DNA from: Streptomyces sp. NBC_00237
GTDB taxonomy: Bacteria; Actinomycetota; Actinomycetes; Streptomycetales; Streptomycetaceae
DNA: 64,000 bases
Direction: 5' to 3'
Assembly: GCF_026342435.1 (NCBI RefSeq)
Contig: NZ_JAPEMT010000002.1
Span: forward strand, 248,001 to 312,000
In this document: positions 33,452 through 43,369 of the stretch, one piece after another
How the letters are laid out: each line of letters begins with the position of its first letter
Numbering within the stretch: the stretch's first letter is position 1
Program-made: the position numbers and the translations under genes
The notes under the pieces: model-generated
Database searches by the model: none
What the model saw: the letters and a program-made list of their open reading frames with translations, nothing else
Told to the model about the DNA's origin: nothing

Positions 33452-34249
33452 CTACTTGCCGGTCTCCTTCTCGTACGCCTTGACGACCTCTTCGGTGGGG
33501 CCGTCCATCAGGAGCTCGCCCTTCTCCAGCCACAGGACGCGGTCGCAGGTGTCCCTGATCGACTTGTTGCTGTGGCTGACCAGGAAGACCGTGCCTGCCT
33601 CCTTGCGGAGCTCGCGGATCCTCTGCTCCGAGCGGATCTGGAACTTCCGGTCACCGGTGGCCAGCGCCTCGTCGATCATCAGGACGTCGTGGTCCTTGGC
33701 CGCCGCGATGGAGAAGCGCAGGCGCGCCGCCATGCCGGAGGAGTAGGTCCGCATGGGAAGGGTGATGAAGTCGCCCTTCTCGTTGATTCCGGAGAAGTCG
33801 ACGATGCTCTGGTAGCGCTGGCGGATCTGCTCGCGCGACATGCCCATGGCGAGTCCGCCGAGGATCACGTTGCGCTCACCGGTCAGGTCGTTCATCAGCG
33901 CCGCGTTGACACCGAGGAGCGAGGGCTGGCCGTCGGTGTAGACCTTGCCGCTCTCGGCGGGCAGCAGCCCGGCGATGGCGCGCAGCAGGGTCGACTTGCC
34001 GGAACCGTTGGAGCCGATCAGACCGATGGCCTCGCCCCGGTACGCCGTGAAGGACACCCCGCGCACGGCGTGCACCTTGCGTACGCCGCGCACCTGGTCG
34101 GTCTTCTTGCCGCGCAGGATGCGGTTGAGGGCGGCGGTCGCGCCGCCCTTGCCGCCGCCGCCGGTGTTCACCCGGTAGACGATGTGCACGTCGTCGGCGA
34201 TGACCGTGGGGACGCGCCCCTCGGTGCTGTCGTTGATGTCCTCAGCCAC
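33452..34249 (-). CDS. TagH-like ABC transporter ATPase
   Basis: A 265-residue ATPase of the polysaccharide/teichoic-acid exporter class (ABC-2). Walker A GSNGSGKST is at 79-87, the signature TYSSGMAARLRFSIA follows, Walker B is DVLMIDEALATGD, and the H-loop is LVSHSNKSI. The N-terminal insert (GGGGKGGATAALNRILRGKKTDQVRGVRKVHAVRGVSF) is typical of TagH/RfbE-type ATPases. It works with the overlapping permease gene to flip a lipid-linked product. ATG 34249 overlaps the permease stop by 8 nt. Confidence 0.93.
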   Translation of the reverse strand: MAEDINDSTEGRVPTVIADDVHIVYRVNTGGGGKGGATAALNRILRGKKTDQVRGVRKVHAVRGVSFTAYRGEAIGLIGSNGSGKSTLLRAIAGLLPAESGKVYTDGQPSLLGVNAALMNDLTGERNVILGGLAMGMSREQIRQRYQSIVDFSGINEKGDFITLPMRTYSSGMAARLRFSIAAAKDHDVLMIDEALATGDRKFQIRSEQRIRELRKEAGTVFLVSHSNKSIRDTCDRVLWLEKGELLMDGPTEEVVKAYEKETGK

Positions 34250-35171
34250 GGCCGTAACGCTCCTCAGACTTCCAGAAGTACACGAAGCCGAGCACCCCGA
34301 AGAGAACCGCCCAGGCCGCCGCGGCCGCCCAGACGTGCGGCGGCAGGTTCTCCGACCCGTACCCGTCGATCAGCGCGAAGCGCATCAGGTCCATGTAGAC
34401 GGCCGCCGGGTTCCACTGGAGGGTGTCGGCGATCCACGCGGGCTTGTCCTTCAGCATGACCGGGATGCTGAACATGACGCCCGAGGCGTACATCCAGGTG
34501 CGCATGATGAACGGCATCAGCTGTGCCAGGTCAGGGGTCTTGGACCCCATCCTCGCCATGATCAGGGCGAGGCCCGTGTTGAACATGAACTGGAGCACCA
34601 GCGCCGGGATCAGCAGCAGCCACGACCAGGTCGGGAAGTTGCCGAAGGCCATCACGATCAGCAACAGCACGATCATCGAGTACAGGAGCTGCTGGAGCTG
34701 CTGGAGCGAGAACGAGATCGGCAGCGAAGCGCGCGGGAAGTGCAGCGCGCGCACCAGACCGAGGTTGCCGGAGATCGCCCGCACGCCCGCCATCACCGAG
34801 CTCTGGGTGAAGGTGAACACGAAGATGCCGGTGACCAGGAACGGGATGTAGACGCCCTTGTCCATCCCCCGTCCCGCGTCCAGGATCAGCCCGAAGATCA
34901 GGAAGTAGACCAGCGCGTTCAGCAGTGGGGTCGCCACCTGCCACAGCTGGCCCAGCTTGGCCTGGCTGTACTGGGCCGCCAGCTTGGCCGAGGAGAACGC
35001 CATGATGAAGTGGCGCCGCCCCCACAGCTGCTGGACGTACTCGCGCAGTCCGGGCCGGGCGCCGCTCACCGAGAGGTGGTACTTGGCGGCGAGCTGCGCC
35101 GGGGTCAGTCCCTCGTCGGGAGAGGGAGGGGCGCTCATAGCGACCGCTCCGTCTTGGGAAGTGTCACTCAC
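34242..35171 (-). CDS. TagG-like ABC transporter permease
   Basis: A 309-residue ABC-2 type permease. After an 85-residue cytoplasmic N terminus there are six predicted membrane helices (for example LLNALVYFLIFGLIL, PFLVTGIFVFTFTQ, MIVLLLIVMAFG, WLLLIPALVLQFMFNTGLALI, VWAAAAAWAVLFGVLGFVYF) and the conserved KLGQLWQVATPLL region. It exports polysaccharide or teichoic acid-like glycolipid. A 117-nt gap from the glycosyltransferase, with a repeated CCCGGGA motif, might hold an internal promoter. Confidence 0.92.
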   Translation of the reverse strand: MSDTSQDGAVAMSAPPSPDEGLTPAQLAAKYHLSVSGARPGLREYVQQLWGRRHFIMAFSSAKLAAQYSQAKLGQLWQVATPLLNALVYFLIFGLILDAGRGMDKGVYIPFLVTGIFVFTFTQSSVMAGVRAISGNLGLVRALHFPRASLPISFSLQQLQQLLYSMIVLLLIVMAFGNFPTWSWLLLIPALVLQFMFNTGLALIMARMGSKTPDLAQLMPFIMRTWMYASGVMFSIPVMLKDKPAWIADTLQWNPAAVYMDLMRFALIDGYGSENLPPHVWAAAAAWAVLFGVLGFVYFWKSEERYGRG

Positions 35172-35288
35172 AAGTGGAAACTTTCGTCTTCAAAGATGCG
35201 CGAACCGGTGGGCGCTGGCGCGCGGGTATCCGGGTCCCGGGAGACAAAACCCGATGCTTGCCGTCCCGGGAGGGCTGTTCCGAGCCTG

Positions 35289-36188
35289 TCAGATGACGGG
35301 TGGTCGGCCCAGACGGGTCAGCCGCCATACCGTACGCCACTTCATGGGGCGGCGAGGACCCGCGGGGGTCTTCCAGCCTTCCTTGAAACCGCCGAACCAC
35401 GCCTTGAGCGCCTCCCCCGAGGGGCGCCGGGCGAGGGTGAGCAGCAGCCAGACGCCGACGTAGACCGGCACCAGGGGTGCGGGCAGGTTGCGGCGGGCCA
35501 GCCAGACCCGGTTGCGGGCCACCATCCGGTGGTACGTCGCGTGCCGGGCGGGCGAGGTGGTGGGGTGGTACAGGACCATGTCCGCGCGGTAGTCGATCAT
35601 CCAGCCCGCGTCGAGCGCCCGCCAGGCGAGGTCGGTCTCCTCGTGGGCGTAGAAGAACGCGTCCGGGAGTCCGCCGACCTCCGCGAAGACCTTCGTACGG
35701 GCGGCGTTCGCCCCGCCGAGGAAGGTCGTCACGCGGGAGGAGCGCATCGGGTCGGAGGCCCGCAGCCGGGGGACGTGGCGGCGCTGGGTGACGCCGGTGT
35801 CCTGGTCGGCGATGCGGAAGCTGATGATGCCGAGCCTGCGGTCTGCCTCGAACGCCTTGCGGCACAGCTCGGCGGTGTCGGTGTTCGGCAGGAGGCCGTC
35901 GTCGTCGAGGAAGAGCAGGATGTCGACGTCGGAACCGGAGGGTCCGAATGCCTCGATGCCGACGTTGCGGCCGCCGGGGATGCCGAGGTTCTCGGGCAGG
36001 TCCACGGTGCGTACGTCGCCGGGGACGCCGGTGACGGGGGCGCCGTTGCCGACGACCACGATGTCGACCGGGTCGCCGTCCTGCTTGCGGACGGAGTCGA
36101 TCAGGGCGTTCAGGTCGTCCGGGCGGGTGCCCATCGTGATGATGACCGCGCCCACCTTGAGGGAGCCGTGCCCCTGGGCGGCGCTCAC
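35289..36188 (-). CDS. GT2-family glycosyltransferase
   Basis: A 299-residue GT-A glycosyltransferase of the rhamnosyl/galactosyl-like GT2 group. GAVIITMGTRPDDLNALIDSVRKQ starts the fold, VVVGNGAPV follows, ENLGIPGGRNVGIEAFG is the usual GT2 block, LLFLDDDGLLPNT provides the DXD metal site, and FFYAHEETDLAWRALDAG is the ED-type acceptor motif. A hydrophobic segment PLVPVYVGVWLLLTLARR near 245 may anchor it. GTG 36188 overlaps the CDP-alcohol transferase stop (GTGA). Confidence 0.92.
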   Translation of the reverse strand: MSAAQGHGSLKVGAVIITMGTRPDDLNALIDSVRKQDGDPVDIVVVGNGAPVTGVPGDVRTVDLPENLGIPGGRNVGIEAFGPSGSDVDILLFLDDDGLLPNTDTAELCRKAFEADRRLGIISFRIADQDTGVTQRRHVPRLRASDPMRSSRVTTFLGGANAARTKVFAEVGGLPDAFFYAHEETDLAWRALDAGWMIDYRADMVLYHPTTSPARHATYHRMVARNRVWLARRNLPAPLVPVYVGVWLLLTLARRPSGEALKAWFGGFKEGWKTPAGPRRPMKWRTVWRLTRLGRPPVI

Positions 36189-36967
36189 TTCAGCCTGCTG
36201 GAGGCGAGGATGGACACCAGGTGCAGCAGCGTCTGGAGCATGGCGATGCCCGCGAAGACGGCGACGCCGAGCCGGGTGAAGAACAGGTCGTCGCGGACCG
36301 CGTCGAAGACCGCGAGGACCAGGATCAGCAGCGTCGCCTCGATGCCGAGGATCAGCCGGTGGAACTGGAGCATGGACGCCAGCTTGCGGGCCAGCGCCAT
36401 CTTGGAGGAGCGCGGCACGCTCGCCGACTCCGCGACCGGCGGCTTGCCGCCCTGGTGACGGGCGACGGCGACGAGGTCGGTCTCCGCCTTGATCAGGATC
36501 GCGCCGAGGGCGGCCAGGGTGCCGAGGAAGGCCCACAGCCAGTCGATGCGTCCGGTGCCCCAGATGTCCGCGGCGCGCAGGCCGACGCCGACGAGCACGG
36601 CGGCGTCCGTCAGATACGCGCCGACGCGGTCGAGGTAGACGCCGTTGAGCGAGAACTGCTTCTTCCAGCGGGCGACCTCGCCGTCGACGCAGTCGAGGAG
36701 GAGGTAGAGCTGTACGGCGACGACGCCGAGCACCGCGCCCCAGATGCCGGGCACGAGAAGCGCCGGCGCGGCCAGCACGCCGCACACCGTCATCACGTAC
36801 GTCAGCTGATTGGGGGTGATGCGGGTATTGACCAGGTAACGGTCGACGCGCAGGGAGATCTCGCGCATGTACAGGCGGCCGCCCCAGTGCTCGCCGCTGC
36901 GCCGGTCCTTGACGCCCGCGGGGTGAACGACGGGACGGAGTTCAGCTACTGATGGTCGTCTTGACAT
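36185..36967 (-). CDS. CDP-alcohol phosphatidyltransferase, motif variant
   Basis: A 260-residue integral membrane enzyme. The motif starts correctly as D92-CV-D95-G96-EV-A99-R100, then eight residues, G109, VYL, D113, RVG, but position 117, the fourth catalytic Asp, is Ala (DRVGAYLTD). About five more transmembrane helices follow. Members move a phospho-alcohol from CDP-alcohol to an acceptor hydroxyl. The missing base suggests either altered chemistry or a neighbouring Asp (D121) replacing it. ATG 36967 lies 26 nt inside the 3' end of the dehydrogenase gene; no Shine-Dalgarno is seen, so translation is probably coupled. Confidence 0.88.
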   Translation of the reverse strand: MSRRPSVAELRPVVHPAGVKDRRSGEHWGGRLYMREISLRVDRYLVNTRITPNQLTYVMTVCGVLAAPALLVPGIWGAVLGVVAVQLYLLLDCVDGEVARWKKQFSLNGVYLDRVGAYLTDAAVLVGVGLRAADIWGTGRIDWLWAFLGTLAALGAILIKAETDLVAVARHQGGKPPVAESASVPRSSKMALARKLASMLQFHRLILGIEATLLILVLAVFDAVRDDLFFTRLGVAVFAGIAMLQTLLHLVSILASSRLK

Positions 36968-38009
36968 AGTCGGCGTAAGCGTCCCTGATCTGGTCTGCGG
37001 ACAGGTCGAGGTGTTCCAGGATCGTGAAGCGTCCCGGACGGGTCTGGGGGGCGTACTCGACGGCCTGGACGAACTCGTCGACGGTGAAGCCGATGTCGCC
37101 GGGCAGTACGGGCAGTTCGTGCCTGCGCAGTACGTCGGCGAAGAGCGCGGCGTCCTCGGCCGCGCCGCGCAGGTGCATCGCGAAGGCGGCGCCGATGGCG
37201 ACCTGCTCGCCGTGGAGCGCGGAGCGCTTGGGGAAGAGCAGGTCGAAGGCGTGGCTGATCTCGTGGCAGGCACCGGACGCGGGGCGGCTGTCGCCCGCCA
37301 CGGTCATGGAGATGCCGGTGAGGACCAGGCCCTCGGCGAGCACCTTGAGGAAGGCGTCGTCGCGGATGGTGCCGGGGTGGCGGAGCACCGCTTCGCCCGC
37401 CTGGCGGGCCATGGCGGCGGCGAGGCCGTCGATGGGGTCGCCGTGGACCTCGTGGGCGAGTTCCCAGTCGGCGACGCAGGAGATGTTGGAGACGGCGTCG
37501 CCGATTCCGGACCGTACGAAACGGTCGGGGGCCTCGCGGATCACGTCGAGGTCGATGACGACGGCGATCGGGGTGGGAACCCCGTAGGAGCCGCGCCCGT
37601 TGTCGTTGTCCAGGGTGGCGACCGGGGAGCAGAGGCCGTCGTGGGCGAGGTTGGTGGCGACCGCGACCATGGGCAGGCCGACGCGGGCCGCCGCGTACTT
37701 CGCGACGTCGATGATCTTGCCGCCGCCGAGGCCGACGACCGCGTCGTAGCGCTGCTTGCCCTTGATGTCGTCGGCGAGCTTGACCGCCGAGTCGATGGTG
37801 CCGTCGGCGACCGGGTACCAGTCGGCGTCCGGCAGGTCGGGGGCGAGGCGCTCGCGCAGGGCCTGGCCCGAGCCGCCGCTGATGGCGATGGCGAGGCAGC
37901 CCGAGCCGGAGATCCGCTGGTCCGCGAGGAGACCGGCGAGATCGTCCAGGGCGCCCCGGGAGATGTCGACGGTCAGCGGGGAGGGGATCAGGCGGGTCAG
38001 TACTGGCAC
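36942..38009 (-). CDS. Glycerol-1-phosphate dehydrogenase-like (Fe-ADH family) enzyme
   Basis: A 355-residue NAD(P)-dependent enzyme. VVGLGGGKIIDVAKYAA is the nucleotide motif, ATNLAHDGLCSPVA and the metal-ligand SGACHEISHAFD are the AraM/EgsA-type pattern (G1P dehydrogenase, DHQ synthase-like fold), and KRSALHGEQVAIGAAF supplies the last ligand His. It would make sn-glycerol-1-phosphate, or act on a related polyol phosphate. The start GTG 38009 overlaps the nucleotidyltransferase end by 13 nt. Confidence 0.87.
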   Translation of the reverse strand: MPVLTRLIPSPLTVDISRGALDDLAGLLADQRISGSGCLAIAISGGSGQALRERLAPDLPDADWYPVADGTIDSAVKLADDIKGKQRYDAVVGLGGGKIIDVAKYAAARVGLPMVAVATNLAHDGLCSPVATLDNDNGRGSYGVPTPIAVVIDLDVIREAPDRFVRSGIGDAVSNISCVADWELAHEVHGDPIDGLAAAMARQAGEAVLRHPGTIRDDAFLKVLAEGLVLTGISMTVAGDSRPASGACHEISHAFDLLFPKRSALHGEQVAIGAAFAMHLRGAAEDAALFADVLRRHELPVLPGDIGFTVDEFVQAVEYAPQTRPGRFTILEHLDLSADQIRDAYADYVKTTISS

Positions 38010-38734
38010 GCGATCTCCCGGCCCTTGGCGAGGTCGTCGTGGTTGTCGATCTCGACCCACTTCACGTCGCCGATGGGGGCCACGTCGATCTGGAAGCCCC
38101 GGTTGACGAGCTCCTGGTAGCCGTCCTCGTAGTAGAGGTCGGGGTCCCGCTCGAAGGTGGTCTTCAGCGCGTCGGCCAGCTCGTCGGCGGCCTCGCCCTC
38201 GATGAGGGTGACGCCGATGTACTCACCGGTCGCCGTCGCCGGGTCCATCAGCTTGGTGATCTTGCTGACGCCCTTGGCGGGGTCGACGATCACCTTCATC
38301 TCCTCGTCGGCGAGCTGCTTCACCGTGTCCAGCGCCAGGATGATCTTCTTGCCGTCGCCCCGGGCGGCGAGCAGCGTCTTCTCGACGGAGACGGGGTGCA
38401 CGGTGTCGCCGTTGGCGAGGATCACCGTGTGCCGGATCGAGTCGCGGCCGCACCACAGGGAGTAGGCGTTGTTCCACTCCTCGGCCTTGTCGTTGTCGAT
38501 CAGGGTGATGGTGAGGCCGTACCTGGCCTCCAGGGCGGCCTTGCGGTCGTAGACGGCTTCCTTCCGGTAGCCGACGATGATCGCGACGTCGGTGAGGCCG
38601 ATCTCCGCGAAGTTGCCGAGGGTGAGGTCGAGGATCGTGGTGTCGCCGTCCACGGGCACGAGGGCCTTGGGCAGCGTGTCGGTGTAGGGACGCAGACGCC
38701 GTCCGGCGCCCGCCGCCAAAACCAGGCCGATCAT
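37997..38734 (-). CDS. LicC/IPCT-like nucleotidyltransferase
   Basis: A 245-residue GT-A-fold NTP transferase. MIGLVLAAGAGRRLRPYTDTLPKALVPV has the GxGxR...PK signature, ANGDTVHP the metal Asp, and EEWNNAYSLWCG is the NxxSLW block of phosphocholine (LicC), aminoethylphosphonate and inositol-1-P cytidylyltransferases. It probably activates a phospho-alcohol with CTP for the two CDP-alcohol transferases. ATG 38734 has AAGGAG with 7-nt spacing and overlaps the preceding stop (ATGA). Confidence 0.88.
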   Translation of the reverse strand: MIGLVLAAGAGRRLRPYTDTLPKALVPVDGDTTILDLTLGNFAEIGLTDVAIIVGYRKEAVYDRKAALEARYGLTITLIDNDKAEEWNNAYSLWCGRDSIRHTVILANGDTVHPVSVEKTLLAARGDGKKIILALDTVKQLADEEMKVIVDPAKGVSKITKLMDPATATGEYIGVTLIEGEAADELADALKTTFERDPDLYYEDGYQELVNRGFQIDVAPIGDVKWVEIDNHDDLAKGREIACQY

Positions 38735-40500
38735 GCGGGTTCTCCTTCGTCGTGTACGGCGGGTGCTCCCGAGGAGACCCAGAAACGGATGCTCTCGGCG
38801 AGCACCACCAAGGCGATGACCACGGCCATGACCGTGAGTGCGAGAGGGAAGTCGAGCGTCGTCGACAGGGCGGCGAGAACGGCCACCACCAGCGTGCGGC
38901 CCTCGTGGCCGCCGACCGCCCGCACCAGCCAGTTCGGCGGGGCTCCGGTGCCGCCCTTGATGCGGTACACCGTGTCGTAGTGATGGTAGGCGACCGCTGC
39001 GACCAGCCCGAATGCCGCCGGGATGGCGCCTGCGACGTCCGCCTTGACCGCGAGGACCAGGACCGTGCAGTACTCCGCGATCCGGAAGAAGGGCGGCACC
39101 AGCCAGTCCAGGGGGCCCTTGAGCGGGGACCGGACGGCGAGTCCGCCGAGGAAGGCGTAGAGGACGGCCGCGCCGACGAACGTCCAGGTGCCGCCGTTGA
39201 CCAGCGCGTCCACGACCAGGATCGTCCCGCCGACGAGGGCGAGGACCGGGGCGAGGAAGCCGCCGCCCGTCCGCCCGCCTCGGGAGGTACCGGCGACGGA
39301 CTCGGCCAGCGGACCGGAGTCCGTCAGGTCCGCCAGCGCCTGTGCCGCACGGTCGGTGCGGGTCGCGCGCCGGGTCAGCGAGCGCAGTACGCGTCCGGCC
39401 GTGGTGTAGCAGGCGGCGAAGGCGCAGCCGATGAGCAGGGCGTAGAAGACGATCCGGGGCGTGGTGAGTGCCGTCAGGACGGCGATCATGGCCCAGCGCT
39501 CGCCGATCGGCAGCACGATCATGCGCCGCACCCAGACCGTCCAGCCGACGCTGTCGAGCTTGTCGGAGAGGGCGGCGGTGGGGCTCGTGTTGCCGGTGGC
39601 GTCGTGGTTGGCCTCGTTGAAGGAGAAGTCCACGACGTGGCGGCAGGTCTGGAGGACCATCGCGCCGAGCGCGAGCGCCCATACGTCGTCGCCGCCGCGG
39701 ATCGCGCCGAGGGCGAGGCCCGCGTAGTAGGCGTACTCCTTGGCCCGGTCGAAGGTCGCGTCGAGCCAGGCGCCCATCGTCGAGTACTGGAGCGAGTAGC
39801 GGGCGAGCTGCCCGTCGGTGCAGTCCAGGACGAAGGAGAAGAGCAGCAGCAGCCCGGCCGCGACGTAGCCGCCCCGGGTGCCGGTCGCCGCGCAGCCCGC
39901 CGCTATGAGCGCGGTGACGAGGGAGGCGGTGGTGACCTGGTTCGGGGTGAAGCCGTGCCGTGCGCACCAGCGGGCGATGTAGCGGGAGTACGGGCTGATG
40001 CAGTACGTGGTGAAGAAGCCGTCGCGGGACTTGACGGCCGTGCGCAGCCGGATCGCCTCGTCGTCGACGGCGGCGACGGCCTGCTCGGCCTCGGTGCGGG
40101 ACGCCTGGTCGGCCGGGACCGCCGCGACGAGCGCACCGAGTTCCGGACGCTGTACGGCGACGCCTTCGGCGTCCAGCCTGGCCGCGACCTCGTCGGGCGA
40201 GCCCGGCGCGGTGCGGGCGGCGCGGCTGAGCGCGGCGCGGGCCTCGGGCTGCGCGGTGAGCGCGCCCGTGACGGCGGCCGCGGGGAAGCGGGGGTCGGTC
40301 AGGCCGAGGCGCAGCGCGTGCACGTGGCCGACGAAGCGGGGGTCGACGAGGGCGACGCGCTCGGCGGCGGGCGTCTCGTCGAGGAGCTTCGCGGCCTCAG
40401 CGGGGTCGGCGGCGGACCGTACGTCGAATCCCAGTGACCGCAGCTCGCCTTCGAGCGACGACCCGGGTACCGGCGGGCCCGTGAGGATTGCGGTCGACAG
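38731..40500 (-). CDS. DUF5941/CDP-alcohol phosphatidyltransferase fusion, probable CTG start
   Basis: A 589-residue protein. The N-terminal ~190 residues form a Rossmann-like domain (STAILTGPPVPGSS, GFDVRSAADPAEAA), the middle is a complete CDP-alcohol transferase motif (D-CT-DG-QL-AR, then GAWLDATFD), and the C terminus has several further helices (DUF5941). The in-frame GTG at 40323 would remove the start of the N-terminal domain. Upstream there is no ATG/GTG/TTG, but CTG 40500 stands 9 nt after AAGGAG, and coding potential extends exactly to it. First gene of the seven-gene unit. Confidence 0.85.
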   Translation of the reverse strand: MSTAILTGPPVPGSSLEGELRSLGFDVRSAADPAEAAKLLDETPAAERVALVDPRFVGHVHALRLGLTDPRFPAAAVTGALTAQPEARAALSRAARTAPGSPDEVAARLDAEGVAVQRPELGALVAAVPADQASRTEAEQAVAAVDDEAIRLRTAVKSRDGFFTTYCISPYSRYIARWCARHGFTPNQVTTASLVTALIAAGCAATGTRGGYVAAGLLLLFSFVLDCTDGQLARYSLQYSTMGAWLDATFDRAKEYAYYAGLALGAIRGGDDVWALALGAMVLQTCRHVVDFSFNEANHDATGNTSPTAALSDKLDSVGWTVWVRRMIVLPIGERWAMIAVLTALTTPRIVFYALLIGCAFAACYTTAGRVLRSLTRRATRTDRAAQALADLTDSGPLAESVAGTSRGGRTGGGFLAPVLALVGGTILVVDALVNGGTWTFVGAAVLYAFLGGLAVRSPLKGPLDWLVPPFFRIAEYCTVLVLAVKADVAGAIPAAFGLVAAVAYHHYDTVYRIKGGTGAPPNWLVRAVGGHEGRTLVVAVLAALSTTLDFPLALTVMAVVIALVVLAESIRFWVSSGAPAVHDEGEPA

Positions 40501-40514
40501 ACGAACTCACTCCT

Positions 40515-42103: not shown

Positions 42104-43369
42104 TTGTCCGACAACGTCATCGTCGACGCCTTCATGACCCTGCACCGCGACCTGCCCCGGCAGAGCCCCGGTTCGGACGGCACCACCCGGCACTTCCTCT
42201 CCCTCGCCTCGCTGGCGGGGCGGCTTCCCGAGCGTCCGCGCGTCCTCGACCTGGGCTGCGGCCCGGGCCGTGCCGCGCTGCTGCTGGCAGCCGAGGCCGG
42301 TGCGCGGGTGACCGCCGTCGACCTCTACGAGCCGTTCCTCGACGAGCTGCGCGCGTCCGCCTCGGCCCGTGGGCTCAGTGACTCGATCCGTACCGTCAAC
42401 GCCGACATGGGCGCCCTCGAAGGCCCCGGCTTCGAGGACGGCTCCTTCGACCTGGTCTGGGCCGAGGGGTCGGCGTACAACATCGGCTTCGCCACCGCCC
42501 TCGCGCGGTGGAAGCGGCTGCTCGCGCCGGGCGGCGTGCTCGTCGTCTCCGAGATCGAGTGGACCGCCGAGCAGCCCTCGGCGGGGGTCCGCGCCTTCTG
42601 GGACCCGCAGTACCCGCTGCGCTCGCGCGCCGAGAACGCGGCGGCGGCCGTCGCAGCCGGGTACGACGTCCTCGGTACGTACCTCCAGCCGGAGAACGAC
42701 TGGGACGAGTACTACGGCCCGCTCGGCGAGCGGGTCGCCACCACCGATCCGGCCGTGCCCGGCATGGCCGAGGCCCTCGCGATGAGCCGCGAGGAGATCG
42801 AGATCCGCCGGAAGCACGGATCGGAATACGGGTACAGCGGGTACGTCCTGCGGCCCGTCGACCCGCGCTGGCGGACCCGTCCCGAGACCGCCGCCGACGT
42901 TCCGGCCGTGCACGCCGTGAACGCCGCCGCCTTCGAGACCGAGGGCGAGGCGGACCTCGTGGAGGCACTGCGCCAGGACCCCGGGGCATGGCTGGACGGT
43001 CTGTCGTACGTCGCCGAGGCGCCGGACGGCTCCGTCGCGGCGTACGCGCTGATCACCCGCTGCCACGTCGACGGCGCTCCGGCGGCCGCGCTGGCACCCG
43101 TCGCGGTCTCTCCGGAGTTCCAGCGGCAGGGGGCGGGGGCAGCGGTCACGCGCGCTGTGATCGATGCCGCCCGGGTCCGTGGGGAGCGGGTGCTGCTGGT
43201 GCTCGGGCACCCGGAGTACTACCCGAAGTTCGGGTTCGCTCCGGCGTCCGGGCTGGGCATCCGGCCCGGTTTCGAGGTACCGGACGAGGCCATGATGGCG
43301 CTCGTGCTCGACGAGGCGGTGGAACCGCCGCGCGGTGAGATCAGGTACCCGGCGGCGTTCGGGGTCTGA
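42104..43369 (+). CDS. SAM-methyltransferase / GNAT acetyltransferase fusion
   Basis: A 421-residue two-domain protein. Residues 1-255 are a class I methyltransferase (VLDLGCGPGRAALLLA motif I near 48, acidic loop AVDLYEPF, TVNADMGALEGPGFEDGSFDLVWAEG, YYGPLGERV lid), like UbiE/MMT-type small-molecule methylases. Residues 258-421 are a YhbS-like GNAT domain (TRPETAADVPAVHAVNAAAF; acetyl-CoA loop VSPEFQRQGAGAAVTRAVIDAA; YYPKFGFAPASGLGI). TTG 42104 follows AAGGGA. The stop is inside a 24-bp tandem duplication, and a clear terminator follows. Confidence 0.9.
   Translation: MSDNVIVDAFMTLHRDLPRQSPGSDGTTRHFLSLASLAGRLPERPRVLDLGCGPGRAALLLAAEAGARVTAVDLYEPFLDELRASASARGLSDSIRTVNADMGALEGPGFEDGSFDLVWAEGSAYNIGFATALARWKRLLAPGGVLVVSEIEWTAEQPSAGVRAFWDPQYPLRSRAENAAAAVAAGYDVLGTYLQPENDWDEYYGPLGERVATTDPAVPGMAEALAMSREEIEIRRKHGSEYGYSGYVLRPVDPRWRTRPETAADVPAVHAVNAAAFETEGEADLVEALRQDPGAWLDGLSYVAEAPDGSVAAYALITRCHVDGAPAAALAPVAVSPEFQRQGAGAAVTRAVIDAARVRGERVLLVLGHPEYYPKFGFAPASGLGIRPGFEVPDEAMMALVLDEAVEPPRGEIRYPAAFGV

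Follow-up and report, generated by a model that had tools for sequence, protein, structure and literature searches.

Why do Streptomyces and their relatives carry TagF-like polymerases without TagD, and what purpose do the glycerol-1-phosphate dehydrogenase (G1PDH) genes of Actinobacteria serve? A testable answer to both questions is offered by a seven-gene unit in the DNA of Streptomyces sp. NBC_00237, found in the 64,000-nucleotide stretch analysed here (the window; contig NZ_JAPEMT010000002.1, positions 248,001 to 312,000 of the forward strand). The unit spans 33452-40506 of the window on the minus strand and encodes, in this order, a CDP-alcohol phosphotransferase fused to DUF5941 (PT1-DUF5941), a nucleotidyltransferase (NT), a G1PDH-like dehydrogenase (ADH), a second CDP-alcohol phosphotransferase (PT2), a GT2 glycosyltransferase and a TagG-like and TagH-like exporter pair. 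Judged from its sequence, the unit is real and widely conserved, teichoic-acid-like in character and provided with an unusual predicted building block. Our preferred reading, to which we give a probability of about one half, is that it makes an exported glycerol-phosphate surface product built on sn-glycerol-1-phosphate (Gro1P), with its CDP-glycerol probably feeding TagF as well where TagF-like polymerases occur without TagD.

Gene content of the unit

The seven genes lie as follows (lengths in amino acids, aa).

38731-40506, minus strand: PT1-DUF5941, 591 aa, GTG start; residues 1-149 have a nucleotidyltransferase-like fold, residues ~160-380 are a CDP-alcohol phosphotransferase with full motif and residues 385-591 are DUF5941
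37997-38734, minus strand: NT, LicC/PntC/IPCT-like nucleotidyltransferase, proposed CTP:glycerol-1-phosphate cytidylyltransferase, 245 aa
36942-38009, minus strand: ADH, glycerol-1-phosphate-dehydrogenase-like, 355 aa from the GTG at 38009
36185-36967, minus strand: PT2, CDP-alcohol phosphotransferase with the fourth motif Asp replaced by Ala, 260 aa from the ATG at 36967
35289-36188, minus strand: GT2 glycosyltransferase, 299 aa
34242-35171, minus strand: TagG-like ABC-2 permease, 309 aa
33452-34249, minus strand: TagH-like ABC ATPase, 265 aa

Pfam recognized DUF5941 (6.8e-93) and CDP-OH_P_transf (1.7e-9) in the single 591-aa chain, NTP_transferase in NT (9.1e-13), Fe-ADH_2 in ADH (2.3e-29), CDP-OH_P_transf in PT2 (2.8e-7), Glycos_transf_2 in GT2 (4.2e-8), ABC2_membrane in the permease (2.6e-12) and ABC_tran in the ATPase (2.1e-19). 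All seven genes described by the initial annotation were recovered in place, on the minus strand, with Pfam and NCBIfam; the span it gave, 33452-40500, is right in location and ends six bases short, the first gene beginning at 40506. The compact arrangement it reported could likewise be read off the sequence: among the first five genes the stop of each overlaps the start of the next, by 4 nucleotides (nt), 13 nt (with the GTG start at 38009), 26 nt (with the ATG start at 36967) and 4 nt, and a 117-nt gap (35172-35288) separates the GT2 stop from the exporter start. The permease and ATPase genes overlap by 8 nt. The best NCBIfam model for the ATPase was TagH (3.7e-50, 170.8 bits, under the curated cut-off of 320), which is in keeping with the TagGH-like export proposed earlier; the best model for the permease was a galactan exporter (56 bits against a cut-off of 380).

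Predicted building block

The best NCBIfam model for ADH was NAD(P)-dependent glycerol-1-phosphate dehydrogenase (2e-69, 234 bits), followed by glycerol dehydrogenase at 82 bits. Searched against the PDB, ADH scored 119-204 bits with chains named G1PDH; the highest match of all, at 213 bits, was 3ce9, a chain annotated as glycerol dehydrogenase, and the other glycerol dehydrogenases scored 78 bits or less. Residues D170, H248, H265, R241, P242, S244 and G245 are invariant among 13 ADH sequences and align with the same residues of archaeal 4rgq, and the Asp/His/His and SRPxSGxxH positions are in the main common to 3ce9 and 4rgq. D170, H248 and H265 are presumably the metal ligands. With G1PDH as its best model and active-site positions matching those of the archaeal enzyme, ADH points to sn-glycerol-1-phosphate as the likeliest polyol phosphate, which the initial annotation had named with a "perhaps".

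The top PDB relative of NT was LicC (80 bits, residues 3-106), followed by PntC, and IPCT was also matched. Against the IPCT-DIPPS model, which describes a fused Thermococcales protein (cut-off 580), PT2, PT1 and NT scored 52, 48 and 45 bits respectively, each taken separately. The broader claim that a polyol phosphate is made, nucleotide-activated and passed to a membrane acceptor is also supported as a prediction.

TagF-like polymerases without TagD

Two samples of genomes were used. The phylum sample held 396 actinobacterial genomes, including 12 of the window's genus, Streptomyces. The second came from a contig scan whose queries were seven NT sequences of other genera and which gave at least 582 relatives; the best 80 (the named loci) were analysed with flanks of up to ~10 kb, and since they were picked by NT and are mutually related their counts are not independent. 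Genes in part of the compared loci were called with a home-made caller, and some starts are approximate.

The window's genome encodes TagF-like polymerases at C1:1209379 and C1:1653626, together with fragments, outside the window's unit. No match to TagD was obtained in this genome with a model that matched 12 of 14 controls (over cut-off in 2), and its only two PF01467 proteins we take, from their sequences, to be NadD-like and CoaD-like. Strong TagF (at least 200 bits) was present in 27 of the 396 genomes, of which 17 had ADH (E up to 1e-30), 16 had NT and 4 had a TagD-like match (at least 100 bits; 3 over cut-off). ADH and a TagD-like match occurred together in none of the 27, nor in any of the 396. 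All 12 Streptomyces genomes carry TagF and none has TagD over cut-off (weak matches in 7, best 66 bits; none in 5). Seven named genomes, one per genus, drawn from the 80 named loci gave strong TagF in 7/7 and TagD over cut-off in 0/7, with weak TagD-model matches in all seven (best 44 bits).

The same genome has another NT-ADH pair (G000:C1:1644752-1646526; L045:7753-9569), whose NT is 87% and whose ADH is 82% identical to those of the window; RNase E lies on one side of it and the ribosomal L21/Obg genes on the other. TagF-like genes lie 3-8 kb from this pair overall, with fragments ~3 kb off, one of them containing an in-frame stop, and an intact gene ~7 kb off. TagGH paralogues of the same genome (L046:4417-6076; 77% and 61% identical to the window's pair) are situated ~3 kb from another TagF-like gene. 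In other genomes, TagF lies inside the module at L024, a second ADH of G334 lies ~6 kb from TagF genes with no NT found beside it, and TagF, NT and ADH are adjacent in G121 (L048), the latter two being distant relatives (ADH 37% identity).

Conservation across Actinobacteria

DUF5941 was found in 19 of the 396 genomes, among them 12/12 of Streptomyces, and NT and ADH were both present in 19/19. All seven genes stand together with hpnC and hpnD in 11/11 further Streptomyces loci (hpnC of L032 is clipped by the stretch end), and the grouping is not chance because the full set recurs in every one of them. The unit is conserved as proposed, being complete in 12/12 same-genus genomes, with parts that recur in the best 80 named actinobacterial loci. 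Outside the genus, the seven genes lie together in L021, L022, L024 and L025, with extra genes preceding the exporter in the first three; the set is split in two parts on one contig in L027 and L050, and at L026 the exporter is not in the stretch read. L023 has PT1 and DUF5941 only, the same genome carrying the full set at L024, and L028 combines PT1-DUF5941 with the exporter and TagF, its NT and ADH lying elsewhere in that genome.

NT and ADH are co-present in 80/80 named loci, less than 100 bp apart in 77 and less than 160 bp in three. PT2 was detected in 52, GT2 in 50, DUF5941 in 50, PT1 in 34 (counted at 100 bits or more only), TagG in 22 and TagH in 24 (some weak); PT2 is present in all 50 loci with DUF5941. 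The order PT1-DUF5941-NT-ADH-PT2-GT2 is seen in Nonomuraea, Microbispora, Thermomonospora and similar genera, TagGH is placed in front of the unit in Nocardiopsis and its kin, and NT-ADH is kept with another short, full-motif CDP-alcohol phosphotransferase in Micromonospora. A three-gene cassette of NT, ADH and such a short phosphotransferase, with no PT2 or GT2, was seen in L067 (Micromonospora), L115 (Spirilliplanes) and L049 (G204). L051, L052 and L053, from family f9 genomes that are absent from the 396-genome TagF match list, carry a distant NT-ADH pair, which in L051 adjoins two type I phosphodiesterase-like genes and a Bac_transf enzyme.

The named Streptomyces loci L103, L110 and L129 have the same part order and hopanoid neighbours as the window, where the adjacent hopanoid operon had suggested a functional tie. 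That tie was given up: despite adjacency in 11/11 same-genus loci, hpnC/hpnD lie near the unit in only 3/80 named loci, all three of them Streptomyces, and in none of the named-locus flanks (10 kb or less) outside that genus. Among the other neighbours, a Bac_transf enzyme close to the PT1 of L027 and the sulfotransferases or GT4 enzymes that accompany the unit in L021, L023, L024 and L025 fit a lipid-linked, decorated glycan. Several sulfotransferase genes (PF13469) adjoin the unit or PT1-DUF5941 in L021, L023 and L024, from deep actinobacterial genomes, and suggest a sulfated product there.

Folds and motifs of the phosphotransferases

In the model of PT1-DUF5941 (predicted local distance difference test score, pLDDT, 87), DUF5941 is preceded by a CDP-alcohol phosphotransferase core and, at the N-terminus, by a domain of nucleotidyltransferase-like fold that matched IspD rows at Z ~12.8. 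In VIA the highest-ranking relatives across residues 160-581 were cholinephosphotransferases (8ul9, Z 20.6, root-mean-square deviation 4.7, 311 aligned); Foldseek placed AF2299 at the top (2e-8) and CEPT1 at 3e-3, the best relatives being AF2299, IPCT-DIPPS and PIP synthases. When DUF5941 was modelled alone (pLDDT 93.4), the top 17 VIA rows were all CDP-alcohol phosphotransferases (Z 15.1-9.4; next row 6.0), and Foldseek returned the same top families with a weak E (0.04). On these models DUF5941 can be redescribed as a six-helix CDP-alcohol phosphotransferase fold minus the signature motif, and DxxDGxx(A/S)R was found in 0/70 matched segments. Assignment on sequence grounds was abandoned because the profile comparison of DUF5941 with PT2 (hhalign) was not significant (probability 0.2, E 0.27), and the family claim is one of predicted fold only.

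The motif D1xxD2GxxAR...GxxxD3xxxD4 of PT1 is complete in the window's protein and in 55/56 sequences of at least 100 bits, and broken in L090. PT2 retains D1-D3 and lacks D4 in 71/71 sequences (Ala in 20, His in 51); one idea is that it uses an acceptor, such as phosphate, for which no general base is needed. PT1 (at least 100 bits) and DUF5941 share one frame in 18 of 54 pairs and are separate genes in 36, the fused form being that of the window, L029-L039, the three named Streptomyces loci, L024, L028 and L104.

At 16 loci of Nocardiopsis and its kin DUF5941 occurs without a strong PT1, and PT2 is the sole frame in the stretch with DxxDGxx(A/S)R. One of these loci, L089, is clipped by the contig end; the other 15 (L065, L070, L077, L088, L091, L092, L094, L097-L100, L105, L108, L109 and L117) have a weak PT1 segment beside DUF5941, in none of which the motif is found. 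The PT1 motif is lost in Nocardiopsaceae, and both halves of the PT1/DUF5941 pair are motif-less there. The idea of PT1 as the general catalyst is weakened by this loss, PT2 being the one motif-bearing transferase at these loci.

Proposed pathway and alternatives

In the pathway that we propose, ADH would convert dihydroxyacetone phosphate to Gro1P, and NT would use Gro1P and cytidine triphosphate (CTP) to form CDP-glycerol of the archaeal-type enantiomer. PT2, without the usual D4, would transfer the glycerophosphate of CDP-glycerol onto an acceptor in the membrane, and PT1, with motif-less DUF5941 as its partner or fused half, may perform a similar transfer where its motif is intact; GT2 would add a sugar and the TagGH-like transporter would export the lipid-linked product. 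In TagF-bearing genomes without TagD the same CDP-glycerol probably feeds TagF as well, and Gro1P may be the building block of their teichoic acid. A wider proposal, that a large actinobacterial group makes cytosolic CDP-glycerol from Gro1P and wall or lipid-linked teichoic-type polymers of the archaeal-type enantiomer by means of a D4-less PT2 and an active/dead PT1-DUF5941 pair, decayed in some lineages, is put forward tentatively. If true, it would mean that bacterial G1PDH has a main function apart from ether lipids, and the view that cytosolic bacterial CDP-glycerol is the sn-glycerol-3-phosphate (Gro3P) form would fail for a large, industrially important group. The stereochemistry of the wall polymer would also differ from that of Bacillus, which matters for enzymes and proteins binding such polymers.

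Several points weigh against the Gro1P reading. ADH is below the curated G1PDH cut-off (PRK00843; 234 versus 413 bits). The best NCBIfam rows of NT are sugar-nucleotide enzymes far under cut-off (AglF 64 bits, archaeal GlmU 60), as are many of its 45 PDB matches, so that its sequence does not establish CTP and glycerol phosphate as the substrates. PT1 and PT2 are most like inositol-phosphate enzymes, and in L048 ADH is followed by a mannitol-dehydrogenase-like gene, so another polyol is possible there. Six of the 27 TagF genomes hold neither ADH nor a TagD-like match, and the TagF/TagD/ADH exclusion (Fisher p=0.012; 0.23 if Streptomyces is reduced to one genome) comes mostly from one genus with kinship uncorrected. 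Strong TagF is absent from 4/19 DUF5941 genomes (G086, G108, G317 and G338, with weaker TagF-like matches in G108), and TagF was found in the flanks (~10 kb) of 0/80 named loci; the unit must therefore also work without TagF, and strict dependence on TagF was dropped. The motif-less PT1 segments of the Nocardiopsis-type loci and the broken motif of L090 belong here as well, and they leave the Gro1P reading unaffected because it is based on the NT, ADH and TagD pattern. TagF-like capsule polymerases take both enantiomers (PMC5974469, PMC8262930), as do cytidylyltransferases (PMC8262930), and free Gro1P was judged absent in the systems studied there.

The unit could instead serve a dedicated phosphoglycolipid, with glycerophosphate transferred in the style of the Kennedy pathway to, for example, diacylglycerol or a glycosyl lipid, and with TagF not using the unit's CDP-glycerol. 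The substrates of cholinephosphotransferases are a soluble CDP-alcohol and a lipid alcohol, and the alignment of the PT1-DUF5941 model with them over residues 160-581 (8ul9 Z 20.6) suits such a product, as does the occurrence of the unit in genomes without strong TagF and in named loci without TagF in their flanks. We nevertheless consider it rather unlikely: the Foldseek E-values favour AF2299, IPCT-DIPPS and PIP synthases, a PT1-centred reaction cannot be general given the motif loss in Nocardiopsaceae, the TagF genomes without TagD would stay unexplained, and the exporter is TagGH-like. The same Foldseek relatives invite a different substrate, inositol-1-phosphate or another polyol phosphate, from which NT would form CDP-inositol or similar and PT1/PT2 a phosphoinositol-type glycan, ADH acting on another ketose phosphate. 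PIP synthase, archaetidylinositol phosphate synthase and IPCT-DIPPS are indeed the best matches of PT1 and PT2, IPCT is among the NT matches, and the mannitol-dehydrogenase-like gene after the distant NT-ADH pair of L048 points the same way. This substrate is quite unlikely in our judgement, in that ADH is G1PDH-like and not an inositol-phosphate synthase, adjoins NT in the best 80 named loci and is paired with NT without PT2 in Micromonospora, and all inositol-type matches of the phosphotransferases are under cut-off.

A role of ADH in archaeal-type ether lipids, which has been proposed for Streptomyces from gene presence (PMC6431249), would agree with its place in the G1PDH group; that paper names Streptomyces as one of the genera in which some species have the complete set of three archaeal lipid genes. 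GGGPS (PF01884/PcrB), however, gave 0 matches in the window's genome in a search that was positive in 7/14 controls, and the gene neighbours of ADH are a nucleotidyltransferase, transferases and an exporter, so that this role was rejected as highly improbable.

Comparison with known systems

The Gro1P pathway would share with Bacillus wall teichoic acid synthesis (TagD, TagB/TagF, TagGH) its CDP-glycerol-type chemistry, a TagGH-like exporter and TagF-like polymerases in the genome. It would differ from it in that the window's genome has no TagD, a G1PDH-like source would give the opposite stereochemistry, and the Streptomyces unit includes a pair of integral CDP-alcohol phosphotransferases. 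Of the Bacillus polymers, wall teichoic acid consists of Gro3P and lipoteichoic acid of Gro1P, and B. subtilis GlpQ releases Gro3P from exposed chain ends (PMC7086022). Wall and lipid-linked polyglycerolphosphates of S. hygroscopicus are very similar in structure and may share machinery (PMC3196553), and the strings 'stereo' and 'sn-glycer' were not found in the accessible text of that paper. Bacillus AraM and archaeal G1PDH (EgsA) belong to the same enzyme group as ADH and have the same active-site positions; unlike them, ADH is coupled to a nucleotidyltransferase, and the window's genome is without a GGGPS partner. A Streptomyces G1PDH is included in the phylogeny of PMC5059525, and PlsY and PlsC use both glycerol-phosphate forms (PMC13400652).

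PT1 resembles the AF2299/IPCT-DIPPS/PIP synthase group in having a nucleotidyltransferase-like domain ahead of a CDP-alcohol phosphotransferase core. It differs in its extra DUF5941 half, a separate NT, scores below cut-off and the accompanying PT2 without D4. In eukaryotic CHPT1/CEPT1, too, the catalytic core precedes a half that is pseudo-symmetric to it and non-catalytic, and PT1 with DUF5941 aligns with them over 311 residues; identity is ~10%, PT1 is without the G2ExxD3H residues, and DUF5941, often a separate gene (36/54), seems to retain all six helices. For eukaryotic CHPT1, pseudo-symmetry was described and duplication or fusion of a prokaryotic unit was proposed (PMC10182977), and the fusion of DUF5941 to PT1 in Streptomyces may be a counterpart of that duplication.

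A syntenic region with crtB, tagH, tagG, araM, a CDP-alcohol transferase, GT2 and a nucleotidyltransferase was reported in 929 Streptomyces genomes, with the nucleotidyltransferase duplicated in 76 (PMC13118837, 2026). In its accessible portions that study calls the region teichoic-acid-related, gives no product, and has no CDP-glycerol or stereochemistry idea, TagD test or DUF5941 fold. DUF5941 is unnamed in the openly licensed literature as far as its text was available, and the gene set is thus not tied there to a characterised product; a proposal of CDP-glycerol from Gro1P in Actinobacteria was not found in the openly licensed literature, and the accessible parts of PMC12286996, PMC11481543 and PMC9385802 contained nothing further on the unit. 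The S. coelicolor gene numbers SCO6752-SCO6757, which may correspond to the unit, led to a single network-inference paper among the matches listed. New here are the absence of TagD, the link to TagF, the second NT-ADH pair, the fold of DUF5941, the loss of D4 in PT2 and the loss of the PT1 motif in Nocardiopsaceae.

Elsewhere in the window, a single frame at 42104-43369 resembles, as judged by eye, a methyltransferase domain followed by an acetyltransferase domain.

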